From: Clostridia bacterium | GTDB lineage: Bacteria > Bacillota > Clostridia > TANB77 > CAG-508 | Assembly (NCBI GenBank): GCA_017469445.1 | Contig: JAFUGK010000002.1 | Location: 124,001-188,000 of the forward strand | Direction of reading: 5' to 3' | Length of the DNA stretch: 64,000 nt | Shown: positions 22,053 to 62,393 of the stretch, in pieces | Position numbering within the stretch: the stretch's first letter is position 1 | Layout of the letters: every line of letters begins with the position of its first letter | Made by a program: the position numbers and the translations under genes | The notes under the pieces: model-generated | Told to the model about the DNA's origin: nothing | What the model saw: the letters and a program-made list of their open reading frames with translations, nothing else | The model's database searches: none

Positions 22053-22081
22053 TTGAAAAAAATAATAATATATGTTATAAT
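22053..22081 (+). promoter_or_regulatory. Predicted promoter of the OLE-like RNA
   Basis: TTGAAA, 17-nt spacer, perfect TATAAT. Predicted transcription start is about 22088-22090. No ORF with a ribosome-binding site follows for more than 0.9 kb, which supports a dedicated RNA gene. Confidence 0.75.
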
Positions 22082-22087
22082 AAATAT

Positions 22088-22660
22088 GTGGTGCATTATT
22101 CTAGTTATGCTATCTATTACGAGGGCGGGGCTAAAAATCCGCTAAAGGGCACATCGATGAAGTTCCTTGCCTGTGCGCGAAATGCCAGTTTTGCGTGTGG
22201 GTAGGGAGTAAGAAGTCAGGAAAGTATGTAACGGCATACATATGATTCTCCTTGCTTCGTGGAGGCTTAAAAGAATTAATCTTTTGAGTATAACCTATAT
22301 AACGTGCCAAGACACAATATATAGTGTAGCCTGTCTTGAGTGTTGGGATTGGAATTAACAGCAAAGAATCTCAATTGTGGTAGCTAGATAATTGAAATTC
22401 AAAGTTATGAAATTTCTTGGTGCAAAAGAGACTAGTAATAATAAATAGCATATTAAGGAAAACTTCTAGAATGTTTACCTGTTAAGGTATGGAAACCTAA
22501 GGATTAAGGTACGGATTTAAGTGGCAATCTGGTTTTCTTGTTAAATCAAGAGTGTTTTCTTTAAATGGAAACAGCTAAATAGTAATGTTTAGTAGAAAAT
22601 AGAGAAAATCAACTAGACCTAAACCGTAAAGTTTACTTAGGTTTTTACCACAATTATTGT
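22088..22660 (+). ncRNA. Large structured non-coding RNA, probable OLE RNA
   Basis: About 570 nt with no credible ORF, noticeably higher GC at its 5' end than the surrounding intergenic DNA, and a perfect sigma-type promoter just upstream. Many internal complementary segments are visible, for example GCACA/TGTGC near 22150-22177, TATGTAACGGCATACATA near 22226-22243 and AACCT-rich pairings further on. A hairpin with ACCTAA/TTAGGT and a TTTTT tract (about 22617-22647) would end it. The OLE family (ornate, large, extremophilic RNA, roughly 600 nt) is typically found upstream of oapA; here the next gene encodes a small multi-helix membrane protein that fits OapA. Assignment rests on size, structure and that neighbour, not on an alignment. 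A covariance-model search would settle it. Confidence 0.68.
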
Positions 22661-22668
22661 TAACAAAT

Positions 22669-23024: not shown

Positions 23025-23561
23025 TTGAAAAAAGATAATAAAGAAAAAACAGAAGTGTCGTGGTTTATAATAATATTTGTAGTAACATTTATGTTATCAA
23101 TTTTATTTTCGTTTATCTCGACAAATGCAATAACAGGATTAGAAATAGCACCTGCTTTAATTATATTAATAATTGTAATATTTGTAGGTATTGCATTTGA
23201 TTTGGTTGGAGTAGCTGTAACAGTAGCAAAGGAAGAAGGATTTCATGCACAAGCTAGTAAAAAGATAATAGGTGCAAAAACTTCTTTAAAATTAATTAGA
23301 AATTCAAGTAAGGTCGCCAATATATGTGCAGACGTAATTGGAGATATTTGTGGTGTATTAAGTGGTGCAATAAGTGCAATAATATCAATAAAAATCACAG
23401 AAAAATTAGGACTAGATTTTAATATTCAGTTTATAATAAGTGCTATAGTAGCATCTTTAACAGTAGGCGGAAAGGCAATAGGAAAGGGCATTGCAAAAAA
23501 CCATGCAGAGGAGATAATAGAATCTATTGGTAAAATAGAACATCTTTGGAAGCGTAAGTAA
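23025..23561 (+). CDS. oapA: Probable OLE-associated membrane protein OapA
   Basis: A 178-residue membrane protein starting at TTG with GGAGAGAG upstream. Four hydrophobic segments are visible (about 12-33, 39-63, 108-128 and 133-152). Between the second and third lies a polar, basic stretch (KKIIGAKTSLKLIRNSSK, then VANICADVIGDICGVLSG). OapA proteins are small four-helix membrane proteins that bind OLE RNA and anchor it at the membrane, and the conserved basic plus D-rich segment here matches what I recall of that family. The gene is directly downstream of the OLE-like RNA. A simple rho-independent terminator follows. If the upstream RNA is not OLE, this should be called a conserved membrane protein only. 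Confidence 0.68.
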   Translation: MKKDNKEKTEVSWFIIIFVVTFMLSILFSFISTNAITGLEIAPALIILIIVIFVGIAFDLVGVAVTVAKEEGFHAQASKKIIGAKTSLKLIRNSSKVANICADVIGDICGVLSGAISAIISIKITEKLGLDFNIQFIISAIVASLTVGGKAIGKGIAKNHAEEIIESIGKIEHLWKRK

Positions 23562-50836: not shown

Positions 50837-52663
50837 TTAAGGCTCTTTTTCTTCTTCTACATCTGCTTTTTGTTTTGATAATTCAGCTATCATTGAGTTT
50901 AACTGATTTGCTTTTGCAATATCATGTGCTCTAATGGCTTGAACTTTTTCGGCTTGTAAATTTAAAATTTGTTGATCTATGTCATTACTATTTTGCCCTG
51001 GTTTTCCTAATCCTTTTGCTACTAAAGATAGTTTATCAGAGCTATCTTTAGTAACTTTCACATCATTATTAACTTTTAAACTATTATTAAATGCTTGTTT
51101 TTGGTCTAATATATCGTTAATATCGTCTTCTTCTAAAACTCCCATTTGACCAAAACTTACATCATTAAGTTTTGATTCATCTATAGTTCCTGGTTTCTTT
51201 TTTTGAGTTACAACTTTTTCTTCATCATCTAAAGTCTCCATTGTACCCATTTGACCAGCACTTACATCTGCAAGTTTAGATTCGTCAACTTTAAATTCAG
51301 TATTTGATTTTTTTGCATCAAAATCATCTAACATTTTACTTAAATCAGATTCTGTAAGATGTAAATTTGATTTAGATACATTTGAAGTTGGTTTTTTCTC
51401 AGAAATATCAATATTTTCTGTTTTAATATCTTGAGATGAAACATCGCTTGATTTAACTGTAGAAGTATTATCAAGTATTGAACCTATAGTTCCCATTTTG
51501 TTGATTTCTTCCCAACTATATATTCGCTTATCATCAGATCTTTCTTTCTTTTTATATGTGCGATATTCAGTAGTTTTTGCCTTTTTTGCGTTTCCCATTT
51601 TAGAGTCTTTTTCGTTTTCTATAATAATACTTTTGGCATTAGTTAAATCTTGAGGTTTTTCATCATTAGCTACTGTTATTGTATTATCTGTTTCTACTTT
51701 GTCCTCAATATCATCTATTTTTACTGCATTATCTTGTTTAACTTCTTTAGGAGCTTGTTCTCTTAATTTATCTAAAGGAGATTTATAATCTGCAGGATCT
51801 CCTAAGTGTAATCTTGCTAATGTAAGTTCTTGTCTACGTCCTTCTAATTTAATTCTGTGTGCTTCTAGTGAATTTGCAAGTGAATTATTTCCAGCAATTT
51901 TTTGTGCAGATATTTCAGTTTTTAAATGTACAAGAACCTCTGATAGTTTTTCTTCTTCAGAACGTGGGACATTGTTTATATGATCAAACTCATAAATATG
52001 CATTAAATGATTAACCATAGCATCAGCTTCTTGAGTTGAAGCTATATTGTTTTCTGATTTTTCAACTTCAATAGTGTTTTGCTTTTCTACAGTAATATCT
52101 TTAGTACTATCTGTAGGTTTTTCTGTAATTATTTCTTCTTTATCTTTTTCAACTGGTGTAACAACAATGTCGTTGTTGTTTTCTGATTTGTTTTCAATTT
52201 TTTCATTTTTATTTTGTGGATTATTCAATATTTGTGAAACTTTTTCTACTTGTTTAACTGCATCTGCAGATTTATCAAAAATGTTTCCTCTTCCATTTAT
52301 TATATCTTGAACATCTTGTATAGTTCTATTTGCTGCATTTACAGTATCTTTTGTTTTGTTTATTACAGCTACTGGATTATTTTTATCCATGCTAAGATCT
52401 ACAATGGTACCATCTGGCATTACTTTAGTAGCAGTTTGTGTATTTACAGGTGATGCTTGAGTAACCTTAGCATTAAAATCACCACTAAGTTCTTGAAGAT
52501 TAATTTCTTTACTATTTTCTGCTGCTTCAACATTTGAACCGTTAAGAACAGCTGTTGCTACAGCAGCTGCAGCTAAAGCATTTTTTGCTTTTTTGCCAGG
52601 CACAATTTTCTTAAAAAAACTTTTTAATCTTGAAAAAAATGATTTTTTTTCTTTTTCTTCCAT
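50837..52663 (-). CDS. Large exported or anchored repeat protein of unknown function
   Basis: A 608-residue hydrophilic protein. A basic N-terminus (KKSFFSRLKSFFKKIVPGKK) precedes a hydrophobic Ala-rich stretch (NALAAAAVATAVLNGSNVEA), which looks like a long Sec signal peptide ending AEAAEN-like. The body is rich in Asn, Lys, Asp and Ser. Near the C-terminus a short motif recurs: DESKLADVSAGQMGTMETLD, then DESKLNDVSFGQMGVLEED, and an earlier EEINKMGTIGSILDNTS. A helical segment with two Lys-Glu-rich repeats (LHLGDPADYKSPLDKLREQA region) is also visible. I recognise no family. Codon use is native. The neighbouring, divergently transcribed gene is a foreign-looking exported protein. Confidence 0.65.
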   Translation of the reverse strand: MEEKEKKSFFSRLKSFFKKIVPGKKAKNALAAAAVATAVLNGSNVEAAENSKEINLQELSGDFNAKVTQASPVNTQTATKVMPDGTIVDLSMDKNNPVAVINKTKDTVNAANRTIQDVQDIINGRGNIFDKSADAVKQVEKVSQILNNPQNKNEKIENKSENNNDIVVTPVEKDKEEIITEKPTDSTKDITVEKQNTIEVEKSENNIASTQEADAMVNHLMHIYEFDHINNVPRSEEEKLSEVLVHLKTEISAQKIAGNNSLANSLEAHRIKLEGRRQELTLARLHLGDPADYKSPLDKLREQAPKEVKQDNAVKIDDIEDKVETDNTITVANDEKPQDLTNAKSIIIENEKDSKMGNAKKAKTTEYRTYKKKERSDDKRIYSWEEINKMGTIGSILDNTSTVKSSDVSSQDIKTENIDISEKKPTSNVSKSNLHLTESDLSKMLDDFDAKKSNTEFKVDESKLADVSAGQMGTMETLDDEEKVVTQKKKPGTIDESKLNDVSFGQMGVLEEDDINDILDQKQAFNNSLKVNNDVKVTKDSSDKLSLVAKGLGKPGQNSNDIDQQILNLQAEKVQAIRAHDIAKANQLNSMIAELSKQKADVEEEKEP

Positions 52664-52923: not shown

Positions 52924-53634
52924 ATGATGAAAATGAAAAATTTAGCAATTACTGTAGCAGCAATGGGAACCGTATTGGCAGCAGCTAATGTTGCTAGTGC
53001 AAACGAAATCAGCACGCTGGATCAGATGTTCAAGGCCAGCAAGGTCCCTGTAATTGTAAGGTCCTTTGACCTGAAAGCAGGCCATGAGAACGAAGGCGGC
53101 CAGATGGTTGCTAACGAAATCATGGAAGTGGACTCTGTGATGGGAACCCAGCAGCTTGTTGCTGGAAAAACTAAAGCAGGTTTCACCTGTGCGAGTCCCT
53201 TAAGTGGGAAAACCCGCATTACCTTTTTGGTTGTTAACCCTGACACGGCACAGAAGCTGCACAACAACTTCTTGGCAATGAATGCCAACACTCAGGCTCG
53301 CCAAGTAGGCCCCACCTATCGGTGGACTACCGAAAAGATTGAGATGAGTGCTGAGCTGGCCAACAGGTTAGCAGCAAAAGGTCTGTATGATCCTGTTCGG
53401 ATGACCGTAATCTCCGGCAAGATTAAAGACCGTGAGCCGGTTTGGATTAAGTACGTGAAAGGCGCGGCTGGCTTATTCAGCATCGGCAAAGGGTTGTCTG
53501 ATTTGGGCAAGCCGTATAACAATGGTGTGGAAAACGTTCTGAATGGGGCGTTGACTTTGGGTACTCTGTACACAAAGACCACTGCGATGTTTGGCAATGC
53601 TTCAACTGTAGGCAACCTGAGTGGCGGATTCTGA
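52924..53634 (+). CDS. Exported protein of unknown function with foreign base composition
   Basis: A 236-residue protein with a cleavable-looking signal peptide (MKNLAITVAAMGTVLAAANV then ASAN). The mature part begins EISTLDQMFKASKVPVIVRS and has no motif I recognise. The C-terminal third contains a hydrophobic, Gly-rich segment (KGAAGLFSIGKGLSDLGKPY and NGALTLGTLYTKTTAMFGNA) that may be membrane-associating. Codon use changes abruptly after the signal peptide: CGC, CGG and CGT for Arg and CTG for Leu, against AGA and TTA in neighbours. A textbook terminator follows. Recent horizontal acquisition is likely. Its role is unknown. Confidence 0.7.
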   Translation: MMKMKNLAITVAAMGTVLAAANVASANEISTLDQMFKASKVPVIVRSFDLKAGHENEGGQMVANEIMEVDSVMGTQQLVAGKTKAGFTCASPLSGKTRITFLVVNPDTAQKLHNNFLAMNANTQARQVGPTYRWTTEKIEMSAELANRLAAKGLYDPVRMTVISGKIKDREPVWIKYVKGAAGLFSIGKGLSDLGKPYNNGVENVLNGALTLGTLYTKTTAMFGNASTVGNLSGGF

Positions 53635-53864: not shown

Positions 53865-55349
53865 ATGGAAAATAATGAAGAACAAGAGTTAGACATGAAC
53901 AAGCTTATGAAGGTTAGAAAAGAAAAATTAGAAGAGTTACAAGCAAATGGCAAAGATCCATTTGAAATAACTAAATATAATAGAACACATAATAGTAAGC
54001 AAATAAAAGATAATTTTGAAGAATTAAATGAACAATATGTTAGCATAGCTGGTAGAATGGTTGGAAAAAGAGTTATGGGTAAAGCATCTTTTTGCCATAT
54101 CCAAGATATGCAAGGAAAAATTCAATGTTATGTAAGTTTAAATGATTTAGGAGAAGAAGATTACAAAGCATTTAAAACATATGATATTGGAGATATAATT
54201 GGAATAACAGGTTTTGTATTTAAAACAAGAACAGAAGAAATTTCTGTACACGCAAAAAATGTTGTTCTACTTTGCAAAGCTTTAAGACCATTACCAGAAA
54301 AATTCCATGGTTTAAAAGATACAGATTTAAGATATAGACAAAGATATGTAGACTTAATTGTTAATCCAGAAGTTAAAGAAACATTCTTAAAAAGAACTAA
54401 AATTATAAAAGAAATAAGAAATGTGTTAGATTCAAAAGGATATCTTGAAGTAGACACACCTATACTTAACACTATAGCAGGTGGGGCTGCTGCAAGACCA
54501 TTTATAACACATCACAATACATTAGATATGGATATGTATTTAAGAATAGCAAATGAGTTATACTTAAAAAGATTAATAGTTGGTGGATTTGACAAAGTTT
54601 ATGAAATGGGAAGAATGTTTAGAAATGAAGGAATATCTATAAAGCATAATCCTGAATTTACAAACATAGAACTATATTCAGCATATGAAGATTATAATGA
54701 TATGATGGATGTAGCAGAAGATATTATTTCTACTGTTGCACAAAGAGTTTTAGGAACAACAAAAATTACATATCAAGGAACAGAAATAGATTTAACACCA
54801 AAGTGGAAAAGAATTACTATGATAGATAGTATAAAAGAAGTAACAGGAATTGACTTTAACAATATTCAAACAGATGAAGAAGCAAAAAATATTGCAAAAG
54901 AATTAAAATTAGAATATGAAGAAACAATGACAAGAGGACATATTATAAATTTAGTATTTGAAGAAAAAGTTGAAGAAACATTAATTCAACCAACATTTAT
55001 ATGTGATTACCCAGTAGAAGTATCTCCACTTACAAAAAGAAAAGTTGAAGACAAGAGATTAACAGAAAGATTCGAATTATTTATTGGTGGAAGAGAATAC
55101 GGAAATGCATATTCAGAATTAAACGATCCAATTGACCAATATGAAAGATTTTTAAAACAAGTTGAAGCAAGAGAAGCTGGCGATGAAGAAGCAAATATGA
55201 TGGATGAAGACTTTGTAAATGCTTTAGAGTATGGTATGCCACCAACAGGAGGATTAGGACTTGGAATAGATAGATTAATTATGCTTTTAACAGATTCAGC
55301 TTCTATTAGGGATGTTCTATTGTTCCCAACTATGAAACCATTGAATTAA
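53865..55349 (+). CDS. lysS: Lysyl-tRNA synthetase, class II
   Basis: A 494-residue synthetase. The ATG at 53865 follows AAGGAGAGGT; in-frame codons upstream lie inside the structured leader. An N-terminal OB-fold anticodon domain (about 55-170, [20 protein letters not shown]) leads to the class II core. Motif 2 is [20 protein letters not shown] and motif 3 is [14 protein letters not shown] (about residues 467-480). It charges tRNA-Lys. The leader element suggests possible post-transcriptional control shared with porA, porD and the trmH-like gene. Confidence 0.96.
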
Positions 55350-55384
55350 CACATTTAAAATGGAAAGGATATTAAAAATTAGGA

Positions 55385-55900
55385 ATGCTAAAATTTGTAG
55401 AGAATCCATATTTTAGGGGATGCAAAGATGTTATTTTAAAGAAAGACAATAAAGAATTAAATATATTTTATGGAGGAAATTTAGATATATATTTTGAAAT
55501 GACTGATACGGAAAATTTTGAAAGTGAAACCATAGAATATATAGTAAAGAATGAAGAAAAAACGTGGATATATTTCAATAGATTAATTAGTGAAATTATT
55601 AATAGTAATGATATTGATTCAAAGAATGAACTAGTTAAAAATAATACTATTAATTGGTATAGTGATGAAACATACAAAGAAGCGGCAAATATATTATCAA
55701 TAAAAAAAGAAAAAGAAGGAATAAGGCTTGTTTTTCATAAAAATTCTGATTATGAATCTTACTCATTAGGAATACCTATAAGAATAAGAAATGTAGGCTC
55801 AAGATATAAACCATTTAATATGAGTTTTATGAAACTATATAATGAATTCCAAGAATTAGCAAAAAAGGAAGAAGAAAAAATAATGGAAGAAGAAAGATAA
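55385..55900 (+). CDS. Conserved-looking protein of unknown function upstream of fic
   Basis: A 171-residue soluble protein, MLKFVENPYFRGCKDVILKK onward, with no signal peptide. Residues 15-75 are mainly beta and charged, and the end is a lysine/glutamate-rich helix (LAKKEEEKIMEEER). I do not recognise the family. The +1 frame stays open for about 20 codons beyond the stop (KDKIDEYKKSFYESMKDN), so a frameshift near the A-rich end cannot be excluded. It precedes fic by 72 nt and could be its partner, but it lacks the Fic-inhibitory [ST]xxxE[GN] motif. Confidence 0.5.
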   Translation: MLKFVENPYFRGCKDVILKKDNKELNIFYGGNLDIYFEMTDTENFESETIEYIVKNEEKTWIYFNRLISEIINSNDIDSKNELVKNNTINWYSDETYKEAANILSIKKEKEGIRLVFHKNSDYESYSLGIPIRIRNVGSRYKPFNMSFMKLYNEFQELAKKEEEKIMEEER

Positions 55901-55972
55901 AATAGATGAATATAAGAAAAGTTTTTATGAATCAATGAAAGACAATTAAATAAAAAATTATGGAGGAAAAGA

Positions 55973-56578
55973 ATGATTTTAGAAAACAAATTAAATATTA
56001 CTGATCCAGCAGAACTTGCAAGAGAAGAAGAGAGAATAAGTAAAAGAAAAGCAAAAGAATTATTCGAAACAGGCTATTTAAATACGTTAAAACCTGGCAC
56101 TTTTGCTTCTTTACAAGCAATTCATAAATACTTATTTGAAGATGTATATTATTTTGCTGGAGAAGTAAGAAATGTAGATATGGCAAAAGGTAATTTTAGA
56201 TTTATACCAATTGCATATATTAATGAGGCAATAGCAAATATTGAAAAAATGCCACAATCAAATTTTGAAGAAATAATAAAAAAATATGTTGAAATGAATA
56301 TTGCACATCCTTTTAGAGAAGGAAATGGCAGAAGTACAAGAATTTGGCTAGATTTAATATTAAAAAAAGAATTAAATAAAGTAGTTGATTGGAGCAAGAT
56401 TGATAGAGCAGATTACTTATTTGCAATGGAACGTAGCCCAATAAAGGATACAGAAATTAAAGAATTGATTAGGCAAAGCTTGACTGACGAGGTAGAAAAT
56501 CGAGAAGTATATATGAAAGGAATTGAAAGCAGTTATTTATATGAAGGTTATTGGACATTTAGAATAGAAGATTTATAA
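55973..56578 (+). CDS. fic: Fic-family adenylyltransferase, class III self-inhibited type
   Basis: A 201-residue protein. The Fic core motif HPFREGNGRSTR (about residues 105-116) is complete, with the catalytic histidine and the phosphate-binding loop. The C-terminal sequence SYLYEGYWTF contains S187-x-x-x-E191-G192, the [ST]xxxE[GN] inhibitory motif positioned as in class III Fic proteins (for example the ~190-residue Neisseria Fic). Such enzymes AMPylate target proteins, in known cases gyrase or topoisomerase, when inhibition is relieved. The helix before it (LIRQSLTDEVENREVYMKGI) is also typical. GGAGG precedes the ATG. A strong terminator follows. Confidence 0.92.
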   Translation: MILENKLNITDPAELAREEERISKRKAKELFETGYLNTLKPGTFASLQAIHKYLFEDVYYFAGEVRNVDMAKGNFRFIPIAYINEAIANIEKMPQSNFEEIIKKYVEMNIAHPFREGNGRSTRIWLDLILKKELNKVVDWSKIDRADYLFAMERSPIKDTEIKELIRQSLTDEVENREVYMKGIESSYLYEGYWTFRIEDL

Positions 56579-56598
56579 AAGTATTTAGGGTTAATTAT

Positions 56599-56636
56599 AA
56601 AAGTATGCATTTCATCTTTTGAAATGCATACTTTTT
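56599..56636 (+). terminator. Terminator after fic
   Basis: AAAGTATGCATTTCA / TGAAATGCATACTTT perfect 15-bp stem with TCTTT loop and TTGC tail. Confidence 0.85.
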
Positions 56637-56700
56637 GCTATTTTATAAGGATATATTAAAGAAAAAAGAGCCAATAAGTATACATAATATTAGGAGAATG

Positions 56701-56729
56701 TTTACAATTCTTGAAAATAGTGGTATAAT
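56701..56729 (+). promoter_or_regulatory. Predicted promoter of the trimeric autotransporter gene
   Basis: TTTACA, 17-nt spacer, perfect TATAAT. The leader is about 135 nt and contains a second strong ribosome-binding-site-like GAAAGGAGGAT at 56778-56788 that is not followed by a usable start codon. Confidence 0.65.
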
Positions 56730-56870
56730 ATAAAAAGATATTGTAACAACAATATTTATTTGAAGTACAGGATATTACGAAAGGAGGATAGTATTTAAAT
56801 CAAGCAAGATTGTAAGTAAGTTAGTTTTAGCATTAAAAAATTTAATTAAGTGAAAAGGAGAAAAAACAAC

Positions 56871-59261
56871 ATGGCAAAATTAAAAATGCAGAAATTAACG
56901 AAAGTAGTATTGGCGGCTGTTATGGCAATGAGCATTTGCGGAACTGCGCTTGCAGCACAGCATCCGGATAATACCCGGGGCCGTGTAGTACATGTTGAAT
57001 ACCAGAACACCACAGATAGTGACGGGTTGAATGATCCTAATATCAATCATCCTGCTCTTAATCATGATTCGGATTGTGGAGAATATCTCCATGATACTGA
57101 CCTTACTGTTGGTGACCTGAACAAGGTAACGGATGCTTTGGTTGCCAATGAACAGATGCTTAATAGTCAGCTTAAAGATGAAGCTGCAAAGCGTGCTGCG
57201 GCTGATGTTGTATCCGGAAGTGTTGTAAACACAGACATTGTTTTGAAAAAAGGTGATAACTCCACAGTAGTAATTGATGCTTCTAGCTTGATAGGCGCGT
57301 CATCTGATACTTATGTAGCAGCTGGAAGCTATGATGGAGATTCGCAAACTATCACCCTTGAAAGGAACAATGGTAAAGAAAATATTGACATTAAATTGGA
57401 CAATGTTGCCAAAGCAAGTGATGTGAATAATCTGGAAGAGCGGGTTTCTACAAATGAGACCAATATCCAGAATCTGGACAATCGTGTTACGAATAATACG
57501 ACGAACATTACCAATTTGCAAGGTGATGTAAACAATCTGGAAGAACGGGTTTCTACAAATGAGACCAACATCCAGAATCTGGACAATCGTGTTACGAATA
57601 ATACGACGAACATTACCAATTTGCAAGGCGATGTAAACAATCTGGAACAGAGGGTTTCGACAAATGAGACCAACATCCAGAATCTGCAGGGCGATACCAT
57701 TAAAGATGGTAATTTTGCGGACAACACTATTACCTTAAACCGTAATAGTGGCGAGAATGCCATTACAATGAGTGGAATCGCAAGTACCACAGATGTTCAG
57801 AATGAAGCTGCAAAACGTGCGGCAGATGACATTGTTTCCGGTAGCTTGGTGGATACCAATATTGTTCTGACCAAGGGCAGTGGTGATGAAATTAAGATTG
57901 ATGCATCCAGCTTGGTAGGTTCAGTTACCGACACGTATGTGACGGAAGGTAGCTATGCAAGTGATTCTCAGACCATTACCCTTAAAAGGAATAATGGAAA
58001 AGAGGATATCAACATTAAGCTGGACGATGTTGCTAAAGCGGGTGATGTGACCAATCTGGAACAGAGGGTTTCGACCAATGAGACCAATATCCAGAACATT
58101 GATGGTCGTGTGACCAACAATGAAACGAACATCAAAAACCTGCAAGGCGATGTCATTAACGGTGGTACATTTGCTGATAACACGATTACTCTTACTAGAG
58201 TTAGTGGGGAAAATCCTGTAGTTATTGGCGACATTGCAAGTGCACAAGATTTGCAGTCCGAGGTAACTCGTAGCACCGGCAAAGATGATGAACATGATGC
58301 TGGGATTGCGGCCAACAAGAAAGCAATCGAAGACGAGGTAACTCGTAGCACTGGCAAAGATGACGAGCATGATGCTGGGATTGCGGCCAACAAGAAAGCA
58401 ATCGAAGACGAGGTAACTCGTAGCACTGGCAAAGATGACGAACATGATGCTGGGATTGCGGCCAACAAGAAAGCAATTGAAGATGAGGTAACTCGTAGCA
58501 CCGGCAAAGATGACGAACATGATGCTGGGATTGCGGCCAACAAGAAAGCAATCGAAGACGAGGTAACTCGTAGCACTGGCAAAGATGACGAACATGATGC
58601 TGAGATTGCGGCCAACAAGAAAGCAATCGAAGATGAGGTAACTCGTAGCACCGGCAAAGATGACGAGCATGATGCTGGGATTGCTGCTAACAAAGCTGCA
58701 ATTGAAAACGAAGCAAAAGTTCGTGAAAACGCCGATAACGTTTTGACCGGCGAGGACATTGCAAGTGGTCACATGGATGGCAATACTCTTGTTTTAAATA
58801 AAAATAACAAGAAAACTGTAGAAGTTGATGGTATTGCTACTACTGCTGATCTTGACAATCTGCAAGGCCAGGTCTCTAATAATAAAACAGAAATCCAAAA
58901 TAATAAAGAACGGATTGAAAAAGAGACCAAAGAACGCCAGGCCGAGGATAAGCGCTTGGATGAAAGAATTGACGGCGTCGAACAGAATGTAGGCAATCTT
59001 GGTGGAGAAATTAGGCGGTTAGACGGCAGAATCAATAAAGGTGTTGCATTGGCAATTGCTCATGCTTCTTTAAAACCTTTGCAGTATGATCCGCATTATA
59101 AATTTAGCGGAGCATTTGGAGTAGGCAGCTTCCATGGCGAAAATGCTATTGCTGCAGGTCTGTTCTATCAGCCTAACGAAAACATCGCATTCAACCTTTC
59201 TATTTCCAATTGCGGAAGTGAAAAAGGCTTTGGCGGTGGAGTAAGTATCAGATTTAAATAA
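56871..59261 (+). CDS. Trimeric autotransporter adhesin (YadA-type) with foreign base composition
   Basis: A 796-residue protein. The signal peptide is KVVLAAVMAMSICGTALAA (residues about 10-28); no ESPR extension is present. A head-like or linker region follows, then coiled-coil stalk repeats. One 35-residue type (NNLEERVSTNETNIQNLDNR...) occurs about three times (57427-57690), and a perfect 25-residue tandem repeat (EVTRSTGKDDEHDAGIAANK plus KAIED) occurs six times (58258-58707). The C-terminal ~70 residues match the YadA anchor: an amphipathic helix (GVALAIAHASLKPL), then four beta strands (FSGAFGVGSFHGENAIAAGL, FYQPNENIAFNLSISN, GFGGGVSIRFK). This anchor inserts as a trimer in an outer membrane through the BAM machinery. 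Arg is CGT/CGG and GC is much higher than in neighbours, pointing to transfer from a diderm such as a member of the Negativicutes. Confidence 0.9.
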   Translation: MAKLKMQKLTKVVLAAVMAMSICGTALAAQHPDNTRGRVVHVEYQNTTDSDGLNDPNINHPALNHDSDCGEYLHDTDLTVGDLNKVTDALVANEQMLNSQLKDEAAKRAAADVVSGSVVNTDIVLKKGDNSTVVIDASSLIGASSDTYVAAGSYDGDSQTITLERNNGKENIDIKLDNVAKASDVNNLEERVSTNETNIQNLDNRVTNNTTNITNLQGDVNNLEERVSTNETNIQNLDNRVTNNTTNITNLQGDVNNLEQRVSTNETNIQNLQGDTIKDGNFADNTITLNRNSGENAITMSGIASTTDVQNEAAKRAADDIVSGSLVDTNIVLTKGSGDEIKIDASSLVGSVTDTYVTEGSYASDSQTITLKRNNGKEDINIKLDDVAKAGDVTNLEQRVSTNETNIQNIDGRVTNNETNIKNLQGDVINGGTFADNTITLTRVSGENPVVIGDIASAQDLQSEVTRSTGKDDEHDAGIAANKKAIEDEVTRSTGKDDEHDAGIAANKKAIEDEVTRSTGKDDEHDAGIAANKKAIEDEVTRSTGKDDEHDAGIAANKKAIEDEVTRSTGKDDEHDAEIAANKKAIEDEVTRSTGKDDEHDAGIAANKAAIENEAKVRENADNVLTGEDIASGHMDGNTLVLNKNNKKTVEVDGIATTADLDNLQGQVSNNKTEIQNNKERIEKETKERQAEDKRLDERIDGVEQNVGNLGGEIRRLDGRINKGVALAIAHASLKPLQYDPHYKFSGAFGVGSFHGENAIAAGLFYQPNENIAFNLSISNCGSEKGFGGGVSIRFK
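57427..57690 (+). repeat. 105-bp coiled-coil coding repeats in the adhesin gene
   Basis: Units start AATCTGGAAGAGCGGGTTTC-like and encode NLEERVSTNETNIQN plus LDNRVTNNTTNITNLQGDVN. Two complete, nearly identical copies and one partial copy are present, with only a few synonymous differences, which suggests recent duplication. Confidence 0.85.
58258..58707 (+). repeat. Six 75-bp tandem repeats in the adhesin stalk
   Basis: Each unit begins GAGGTAACTCGTAGCAC and encodes 25 residues (EVTRSTGKDDEHDAGIAANK KAIED). Copies differ only at a few synonymous positions (ACY, GAY, ATY) plus one Gly-to-Glu change. The frame is kept, so copy number could vary and change stalk length. Confidence 0.92.
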
Positions 59262-59277
59262 TTATTCGGTATATCCT

Positions 59278-59312
59278 AAAAAAGTGTCCCAATAATATGG
59301 GACACTTTTCTT
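59278..59312 (+). terminator. Terminator after the adhesin gene
   Basis: AAAAGTGTCCC / GGGACACTTTT with an 8-nt loop and CTTTTG tail. The word GTGTCCC again echoes the GGGGAC repeats. Confidence 0.8.
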
Positions 59313-59388
59313 TTGTTTAACAATTGAAAAATAGAGTAATATATGATATAGTATATAAAAAATTTGTTAAAGTTTGAAAGGAATTAAT

Positions 59389-60111
59389 ATGTTTGGTTTA
59401 GATAAAAGATTTATTTATATATTTATTGCAATTATGGCTGTGAGATTTTTAGCAACAGCTTCAAGTGATACTCTTATTGGATTAGTACTTACAATACCAG
59501 CAGTATTAATAGCAATGACATTCCATGAATTTGCACATGCAAAAGCTGCAGATATGCTGGGAGATGAAACACCAAGAATACAAGGAAGACTTAATTTAAA
59601 TCCATTTTCTCATGTTGATCCAATTGGATTTGCGATGCTTATATTTGCAGGGTTTGGATGGGGTAGACCAGTAGAAATAAATCCTAACAATTTTAATAGA
59701 AATATGGAGCTTACAAAAGCAGAAGCCATTGTCGCATTTGCAGGACCTGCAATGAATTTTGTTCTTGCTATAGTTTTTATGATAATATATGTGGCAATGT
59801 ATGCATTTGGCCTAATTAATAGCCAATTAATGTATTATGTAGCACTAATTGTAAATTATATAGTAGTAATAAACATTGGGCTAGGAGTATTTAATTTAAT
59901 TCCTCTTCCACCATTAGATGGTTCAAAAATACTTATGCATTTTTTACCATACAATGCAAGAGCATGGTTTGAAAAGAATCAATGGTATTTTTATATTGGA
60001 TTTATAATTATATTCATAACTGGAATTGCAGGAGATATCATTAGTCCAGCTATTGATGGAATTTATAATGGACTTGAACATATTATTAGAACGATGTTTA
60101 ATGTTGGATAA
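59389..60111 (+). CDS. M50-family (site-2-protease-like) membrane metalloprotease
   Basis: A 240-residue membrane protein; ATG at 59389 is preferred to an upstream TTG, with GAAAGGAA as ribosome-binding site. The zinc motif is FHEFAHAKAADMLGD (HExxH, about residues 46-50), and the second metal-binding segment is FNLIPLPPLDGSKIL (NxxPxxxxDG, about 170-184). About five to six hydrophobic segments are visible. It matches the short 'site-2 protease family' of Firmicutes near ribosomal or cell-division genes. It cleaves membrane-embedded substrates. Its substrate is unknown. Confidence 0.92.
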   Translation: MFGLDKRFIYIFIAIMAVRFLATASSDTLIGLVLTIPAVLIAMTFHEFAHAKAADMLGDETPRIQGRLNLNPFSHVDPIGFAMLIFAGFGWGRPVEINPNNFNRNMELTKAEAIVAFAGPAMNFVLAIVFMIIYVAMYAFGLINSQLMYYVALIVNYIVVINIGLGVFNLIPLPPLDGSKILMHFLPYNARAWFEKNQWYFYIGFIIIFITGIAGDIISPAIDGIYNGLEHIIRTMFNVG

Positions 60112-62096: not shown

Positions 62097-62393
62097 ATGA
62101 CTAAAATCTGCGTTCGGGATTCAGAAGGCGTAATGAGATTTGTTAAGGCCGAATATGTTTCGGACTATGATTCGGAAGGCAAGCTAAAAATCTTCAAATA
62201 TGCAGATAATTTATATGCTCTGCTGCGAATTGAAGATTGGAAGGTAATGGTTGAAGGTGCAGGTGAAATCCAGAAAGTAAAAAATGGGATGTCCTATTAC
62301 ACAAACAAAAAAGGTGAATGGGGAATCCTAAATGACAGGGGGGAAATCACATGCCCTGCCGGTGTGCTGAAATCCAGCAGAAAGGAACAATAG
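62097..62393 (+). CDS. Small protein with WG-like motif and foreign base composition
   Basis: A 98-residue protein, TKICVRDSEGVMRFVKAEYV onward. Near the C-terminus, TNKKGEWGILNDRGEITCPA resembles one WG beta-repeat unit ('G.WGliD..G.ii.P'). No signal peptide. GC is clearly higher than in the flanking metallophosphoesterase and tig genes, with codons CGG, CTG and TGC. AGGAGG precedes the ATG and a terminator follows, so it is a self-contained one-gene unit. Function unknown. Confidence 0.65.
   Translation: MTKICVRDSEGVMRFVKAEYVSDYDSEGKLKIFKYADNLYALLRIEDWKVMVEGAGEIQKVKNGMSYYTNKKGEWGILNDRGEITCPAGVLKSSRKEQ

Follow-up and report, generated by a model that had tools for sequence, protein, structure and literature searches.

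One gene in the window, by which we mean the whole stretch of 64,000 nucleotides analysed here, raises a question about its host. Its product ends in a membrane anchor of the YadA type, as found in trimeric autotransporter adhesins, and type V secretion is bound to an outer membrane. The surrounding genes are those of a spore-forming member of the Clostridia, apparently a monoderm. How did such a gene arrive there, and what could its product do? The answer that we consider probable, though well short of certain, is that an adhesin of Negativicutes type was acquired by spore-forming Clostridia devoid of an outer membrane, that each of the two sequenced species of the genus now carries it, and that it would be exported by the Sec pathway as a fibre.

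An intact gene for a trimeric autotransporter adhesin

The host genome (G000) comprises 1.53 Mb in 26 contigs and is 94% complete. It contains the adhesin gene as a single copy, on contig C5 (190,380 bases) and about 7 kb from the contig end. The open reading frame is intact, from the ATG at 56871 to the stop codon at 59259-59261 (Table 1). As read from the sequence, the N-terminus combines a basic start, a hydrophobic core and an ALA-A site, and is a predicted Sec signal. Repeated beta modules and coiled-coil stalks lie between this signal and the anchor, and the first stalk array resembles trimeric coiled coils such as that of gp26.

The anchor consists of a helix end and four beta strands, the last of which forms the C-terminus without any tail. 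Pfam YadA_anchor (PF03895) matched residues 738-795 over positions 2-60 of the 60 in the profile, with E=3.1e-11 and above the curated cut-off. AlphaFold, given 30 homologues, modelled the last 187 residues as one long helix of 75 residues and four strands, with a mean pLDDT of 87. The top Foldseek matches of this model were the membrane anchors of Hia (2gr7), AtaA (9vnj) and YadA (2lme). The complete YadA anchor that a first, sequence-only reading of this DNA had placed at the end of the protein is therefore real in both sequence and modelled fold. No LPXTG, SLH or other wall-binding domain was detected by Pfam in the window protein. Overall, sequence and fold identify it as a trimeric autotransporter adhesin, a designation that carries no claim of type Vc secretion.

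Upstream of the gene, the sigma-A-type promoter agrees with the consensus at 11 of 12 positions and has TG ahead of the -10 element; this is a match to the consensus, the start being unmapped. The earlier reading had found the promoter to look like the host's. The element is indeed present, but its host-like look comes down to AT content and a near-universal consensus, by which donor and host are indistinguishable. A copy of the promoter from another host gene was also considered and was discarded, as no match was obtained in the sampled host sequence.

Table 1. Features of the adhesin locus and its conserved flanks (positions in the window)
Feature	Positions	Strand	Basis
lysS, left conserved flank	53865..55349	+	synteny
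171-aa ORF and Fic-domain gene, host composition, between lysS and adhesin	55385..56578	+	ORFs
Fic-domain gene	55973-56578	+	PF02661, E=3e-12
Sigma-A-type promoter, TTTACA-17-TATAAT, extended -10	56701..56729	+	consensus scan
Ribosome-binding site AAAAGGAG	56853..56860	+	10 nt 5' of adhesin ATG, sequence reading
Trimeric autotransporter adhesin gene	56871..59261	+	ORF, 796 aa; PF03895; composition
Predicted Sec signal peptide, residues 1-29 (MAKLKMQKLTKVVLAAVMAMSICGTALAA)	56871..56957	+	AxA-type cleavage site, by sequence reading
Stalk array 1	57414..57686	+	105-bp (35-aa, five-heptad) unit, 2.6 copies; Tandem Repeats Finder
Stalk array 2	58259..58693	+	75-bp (25-aa) unit, 5.8 copies, 95% matches; Tandem Repeats Finder
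YadA membrane anchor, residues 738-796	59082..59258	+	Pfam, AlphaFold, Foldseek, tail comparison
Intrinsic terminator	59280..59309	+	12-bp stem, T-rich run; scan
M50 site-2-type protease gene, right conserved flank	59389..60111	+	39/39 relatives

Foreign composition between host-like flanks

The GC content of the adhesin gene is 38-48% as compared to about 25-32% in the flanks, with a sharp step at the gene borders. Its GC3 value is 0.38, while most flanking genes have values of 0.13-0.17 and the phosphoesterase gene 0.20. Arginine codons are mixed in the adhesin gene (14 CGT, 2 CGC, 5 CGG, 5 AGG and 4 AGA), whereas those of the host lysS and valS genes are nearly all AGA. Thus, the foreign GC content and arginine codons noticed at first sight were confirmed. 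So were the host-like flanks, with lysS on the left and the M50 gene on the right in conserved order. The region 55340-59400 contained no convincing terminal repeats of the mobile-element type.

The adhesin gene is one of three GC-rich genes lying within 10 kb, out of few in the sampled host sequence. The second (52924-53634, +) is a secreted ORF of 236 aa with a GC3 of 0.54; searches against Pfam, NCBIfam and PHROG, 250 Negativicutes-type genomes and other relatives gave no match. Its counterpart in the other genome of the genus (G001) is 207 aa long and 27% identical, and occupies the same place between the gene for a 608-aa protein and lysS; the intergenic DNA upstream is orthologous there (69% over 153 bp). 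A structure model of the 236-aa protein reached a pLDDT of 43 and was set aside. The third GC-rich gene (62097-62393, +; 98 aa, GC3 0.41, no known family) follows the phosphoesterase gene; in G001, the gene at the corresponding position is 50% identical to it. The 608-aa protein itself (50837-52663, -) has host composition, contains repeats and may have a signal or membrane segment. It is 27% identical to its G001 counterpart as compared to 64-92% for its neighbours, and is a candidate fast-evolving surface protein. Elsewhere in the window, a full-length OLE RNA (RF01071, 358 bits, E=1e-101) was located at 22072-22667 (+), with a 178-aa ORF at 23025, 3' of it. In G001, the acetate kinase gene (L005 17459-18700, -) shows a raised GC3 of 0.29, and it is possible that this gene was transferred as well.

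Distribution and origin of the anchor

The anchor was found in 2 of 292 family genomes, both belonging to the host genus, and in 9 of the 398 genomes sampled from the phylum. A profile made from the host pair matched 142 of 300 sampled genomes of a class that LpxC, numerous adhesins and relationships within the phylum led us to take as Negativicutes (the class of genome G457); many of these genomes contained multiple copies. Negativicutes-type homologues were collected with a 31-row alignment. When the whole protein or both host copies served as query, genome-collection and viral scans returned the G001 contig or nothing, the peptides used there not being the conserved ones. Within the phylum, a genome of another family (G679, 320 contigs) carries a YadA-type head-and-anchor protein with a tail, in an open frame of 902 aa (L018).

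In the anchor tree, the two host copies group together with support of 100/98 and join G755, a genome of the Negativicutes-type class, at 98/96; this join is flagged as a meeting of long branches, in a sampling that left out Fusobacteria and Synergistetes. Anchors from proteobacterial plasmids stand apart at 100/99. G755 is the nearest relative and yet is just 42% identical over 138 residues, which indicates that the true donor is unsampled. Overall, the nesting of the host pair among Negativicutes-type anchors, apart from the proteobacterial ones, supports a transfer from a Negativicutes-type diderm. A phage origin was rejected. Phage searches with the full protein gave no match; with the anchor they gave PHROG 8062 and weak similarity to some phages of Enterobacteria. 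Viral contigs bearing Negativicutes-type anchors are all more distant, and no phage genes lie beside the window adhesin.

Two loci in two species

G001, the sole other genome of the genus, is a separately named MAG (BRZ_KF bin28). It carries a sister gene at the start of its contig C5, of which the last 263 residues are open and the remainder is cut off by the contig end. The two adhesins are 66-69% identical over the last 187 residues. Both carry a pore-helix histidine and, in the region of the third hairpin, a cysteine, neither of which occurs in the Negativicutes rows. However, their loci differ. A family-conserved amidase gene lies 3' of the G001 adhesin, whereas in G000 the gene 5' of the amidase ortholog is aminopeptidase-like and no adhesin is present there. 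In G001 and many sampled genera, lysS lies directly 5' of the M50 gene, and it is also close before it in part of the order; three extra genes separate the two in G000, none in G001. The lysS-M50 adjacency is ancestral in the group. At the same junction, the family member G002 carries another gene, in which the Fic-like motif HPFGEGNTR occurs (L099 504-1343). The junction is possibly an insertion spot for Fic genes, and because the G002 gene looks unrelated, the Fic gene of the window may have its own history.

These loci raise the question of whether the adhesin was acquired once or twice. If one unsampled donor lineage had passed the gene to each species independently, this would explain the different loci, the unequal GC3 (0.38 for the whole window gene, 0.27 for the G001 fragment) and a raw synonymous difference of 0.70 between the copies as compared to 0.43-0.60 in host genes. 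The last of these comparisons is misleading because AT-rich host genes saturate early. After correction for composition, the fourfold distance is 1.19 for the adhesin (95%: 0.64 to saturation), no different from the 0.94 (0.75-1.22) of pooled host core genes, and the raw excess was accordingly abandoned as proof of separate transfers. In addition, the two host copies are each other's closest relatives in the tree. We therefore give two transfers a substantial but minority share of the probability. The data are compatible with a single acquisition that preceded the species split, with later relocation of the gene: the fourfold distance of the adhesin, close to that of the host core genes, fits an acquisition before the split, and so does its partly adapted GC3. 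As to the recent transfer from a diderm such as Negativicutes that had been one option at the outset, a transfer is supported by foreign composition, presence in 2 of 292 family genomes and tree position, but these fourfold distances do not show it to be recent.

Possible selection on the adhesin

Between the two host copies, the anchor evolved with a dN/dS of about 0.12. All 11 of the hydrophobic barrel residues that changed stayed hydrophobic, for which a simple codon model gives a chance of about 0.005. In the case of one transfer, this low ratio arose in the monoderm host, which would imply a use for the protein in that setting; in the case of two, the ratio may stem from the donor.

A transferred gene without function, its product exported or not, could also persist for a time in slow decay or turnover. 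Such a gene would sit easily with unlike loci in two species, codon usage that is still unadapted, a missing wall-anchoring domain and a host that offers the anchor neither outer membrane nor BAM complex. However, the frame is open in 2 of 2 genomes (at full length in the window, up to the contig end in G001), and promoter, ribosome-binding site and terminator are intact. Moreover, a neutral 2.4-kb gene resident since the split is expected to be broken at a fourfold distance of about 1. With the low dN/dS and the conservative barrel changes also against it, we regard a functionless gene as rather unlikely, while still allowing it some weight.

One membrane or two

The Omp85 (BamA) model had no match in G000, in G001 or in three more family members; in control searches it matched seven diderm genomes, with Thermotoga and the Deinococcus group among them. 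LpxC was absent from G000 and G001 and was detected in three control genomes of Negativicutes type. Among the genes of the window are those for SpoIVA and a GerA/GerAB/GerAC set. Endospore genes had been part of the sequence-only reading, and SpoIVA, GerA, the spore permease and GerAC are solid; the dlt operon of that reading is better described as dlt-like, since the DltA and DltB models score under their curated cut-offs and the third ORF has no model match. The host is very likely a monoderm, as judged from two markers in draft MAGs that are 94% and 88% complete, with about 7% contamination in G001; as both genomes are incomplete and one is contaminated, two missing markers fall short of proving that there is one membrane.

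Outer membranes without LPS are known in other phyla. A lineage with a cryptic or atypical outer membrane could hold the adhesin, and the complete anchor conserved in both species speaks for it. We find this very doubtful, because a model that works on diderms finds no Omp85 in the five family genomes searched, LpxC is missing, dlt-like genes accompany a full Ger/SpoIVA set, and the anchor family is absent from the 290 other family genomes. The suggestion that the host might have an outer membrane, with BAM or LPS genes as its signature, was thus not upheld.

Least probable of all is an assembly chimera or binning contamination, also raised initially: the sharp GC step, the repetitive gene type prone to bad assembly and the end of the G001 copy at a contig end would suit it, but host genes stand in conserved order on both sides, the GC step coincides with the ends of the gene, where promoter and terminator lie, and not with its interior, and a separate MAG has, next to host genes, a sister copy that differs from every sampled Negativicutes sequence and shares with the window copy residues that those lack. 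Two independent assemblies, with host genes joined at each of two loci, make an artefact very unlikely.

A missing tail and a possible fibre

Behind the barrel, both host copies have 0 residues, whereas 29-190 residues follow in 59 of 59 complete Negativicutes-type rows, some of which are near-copies. The DNA 3' of the adhesin stop codon is AT-rich and leads directly into the terminator. The tail may have disappeared during the passage into the genus, or the unsampled donor may already have been tailless. In the trimeric autotransporters of Veillonella, the anchor is followed by an SLH or coiled-coil domain that is proposed to extend to the peptidoglycan (PMC7549365).

With neither an outer membrane nor a BAM complex, as far as the genome shows, no type Vc function is possible. 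Returning to the acquired adhesin that we favour, the behaviour of its family suggests that Sec would export it, that the coiled-coil stalk and the anchor helix would make it trimerise, and that the trimer would form an adhesive fibre. Most likely, the amphipathic C-terminal strands would retain this fibre within the wall, on its surface or at the cytoplasmic membrane, or the fibre would be shed. The 11 of 11 conserved hydrophobic sites of the barrel favour an amphipathic end that has been kept. A fibre with neither outer membrane nor wall anchor may also simply be lost to the medium. The absence of this periplasmic tail from both copies is a lead toward an anchor adapted to another role, as had been envisaged from the sequence. 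A more demanding version, with one ancestral transfer, loss of the tail, selection for a surface fibre and an undescribed way of anchoring without BAM, is tentative and on the unlikely side.

A genome survey found no diderm-like secretion systems in any monoderm genome (Abby et al. 2016, PMC4793230), and in the open literature that we searched, we came upon no YadA-type protein described from a monoderm. The kind of protein is already known; what is new is its apparently monoderm setting and the missing tail. If the gene is expressed, it poses the question of whether such an anchor has a use where there is no outer membrane, for example by promoting trimerisation or by keeping the protein in the wall. 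The case is also informative on the passage of individual outer-membrane components between diderms and monoderms among the Firmicutes.

Comparison with known systems

The closest parallel is with the type Vc adhesins of Negativicutes (VtaA-I and Hag1 of Veillonella). The window protein shares with them a signal peptide, a repetitive coiled-coil stalk and a YadA anchor, as well as the Negativicutes-type anchor motif (xPLxYDP, FYxPNE), and its best sequence relatives are of this type. In contrast to them, it resides in a host without outer-membrane genes, and the host copies end at the barrel, with no SLH or coiled-coil domain behind the anchor. With the proteobacterial YadA, Hia and AtaA, it has in common the anchor fold (TM scores by target of 0.87 for 2gr7, 0.76 for 9vnj and 0.75 for 2lme) and the position of the anchor at the extreme C-terminus; however, it falls outside their group at 100/99 and its plasmid relatives are only 27-34% identical. 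Finally, it resembles the trimeric or filamentous wall-anchored adhesins of monoderms as a predicted adhesive surface fibre, but where these are fixed to the wall it has no wall-binding Pfam domain, and its C-terminus is an outer-membrane anchor.
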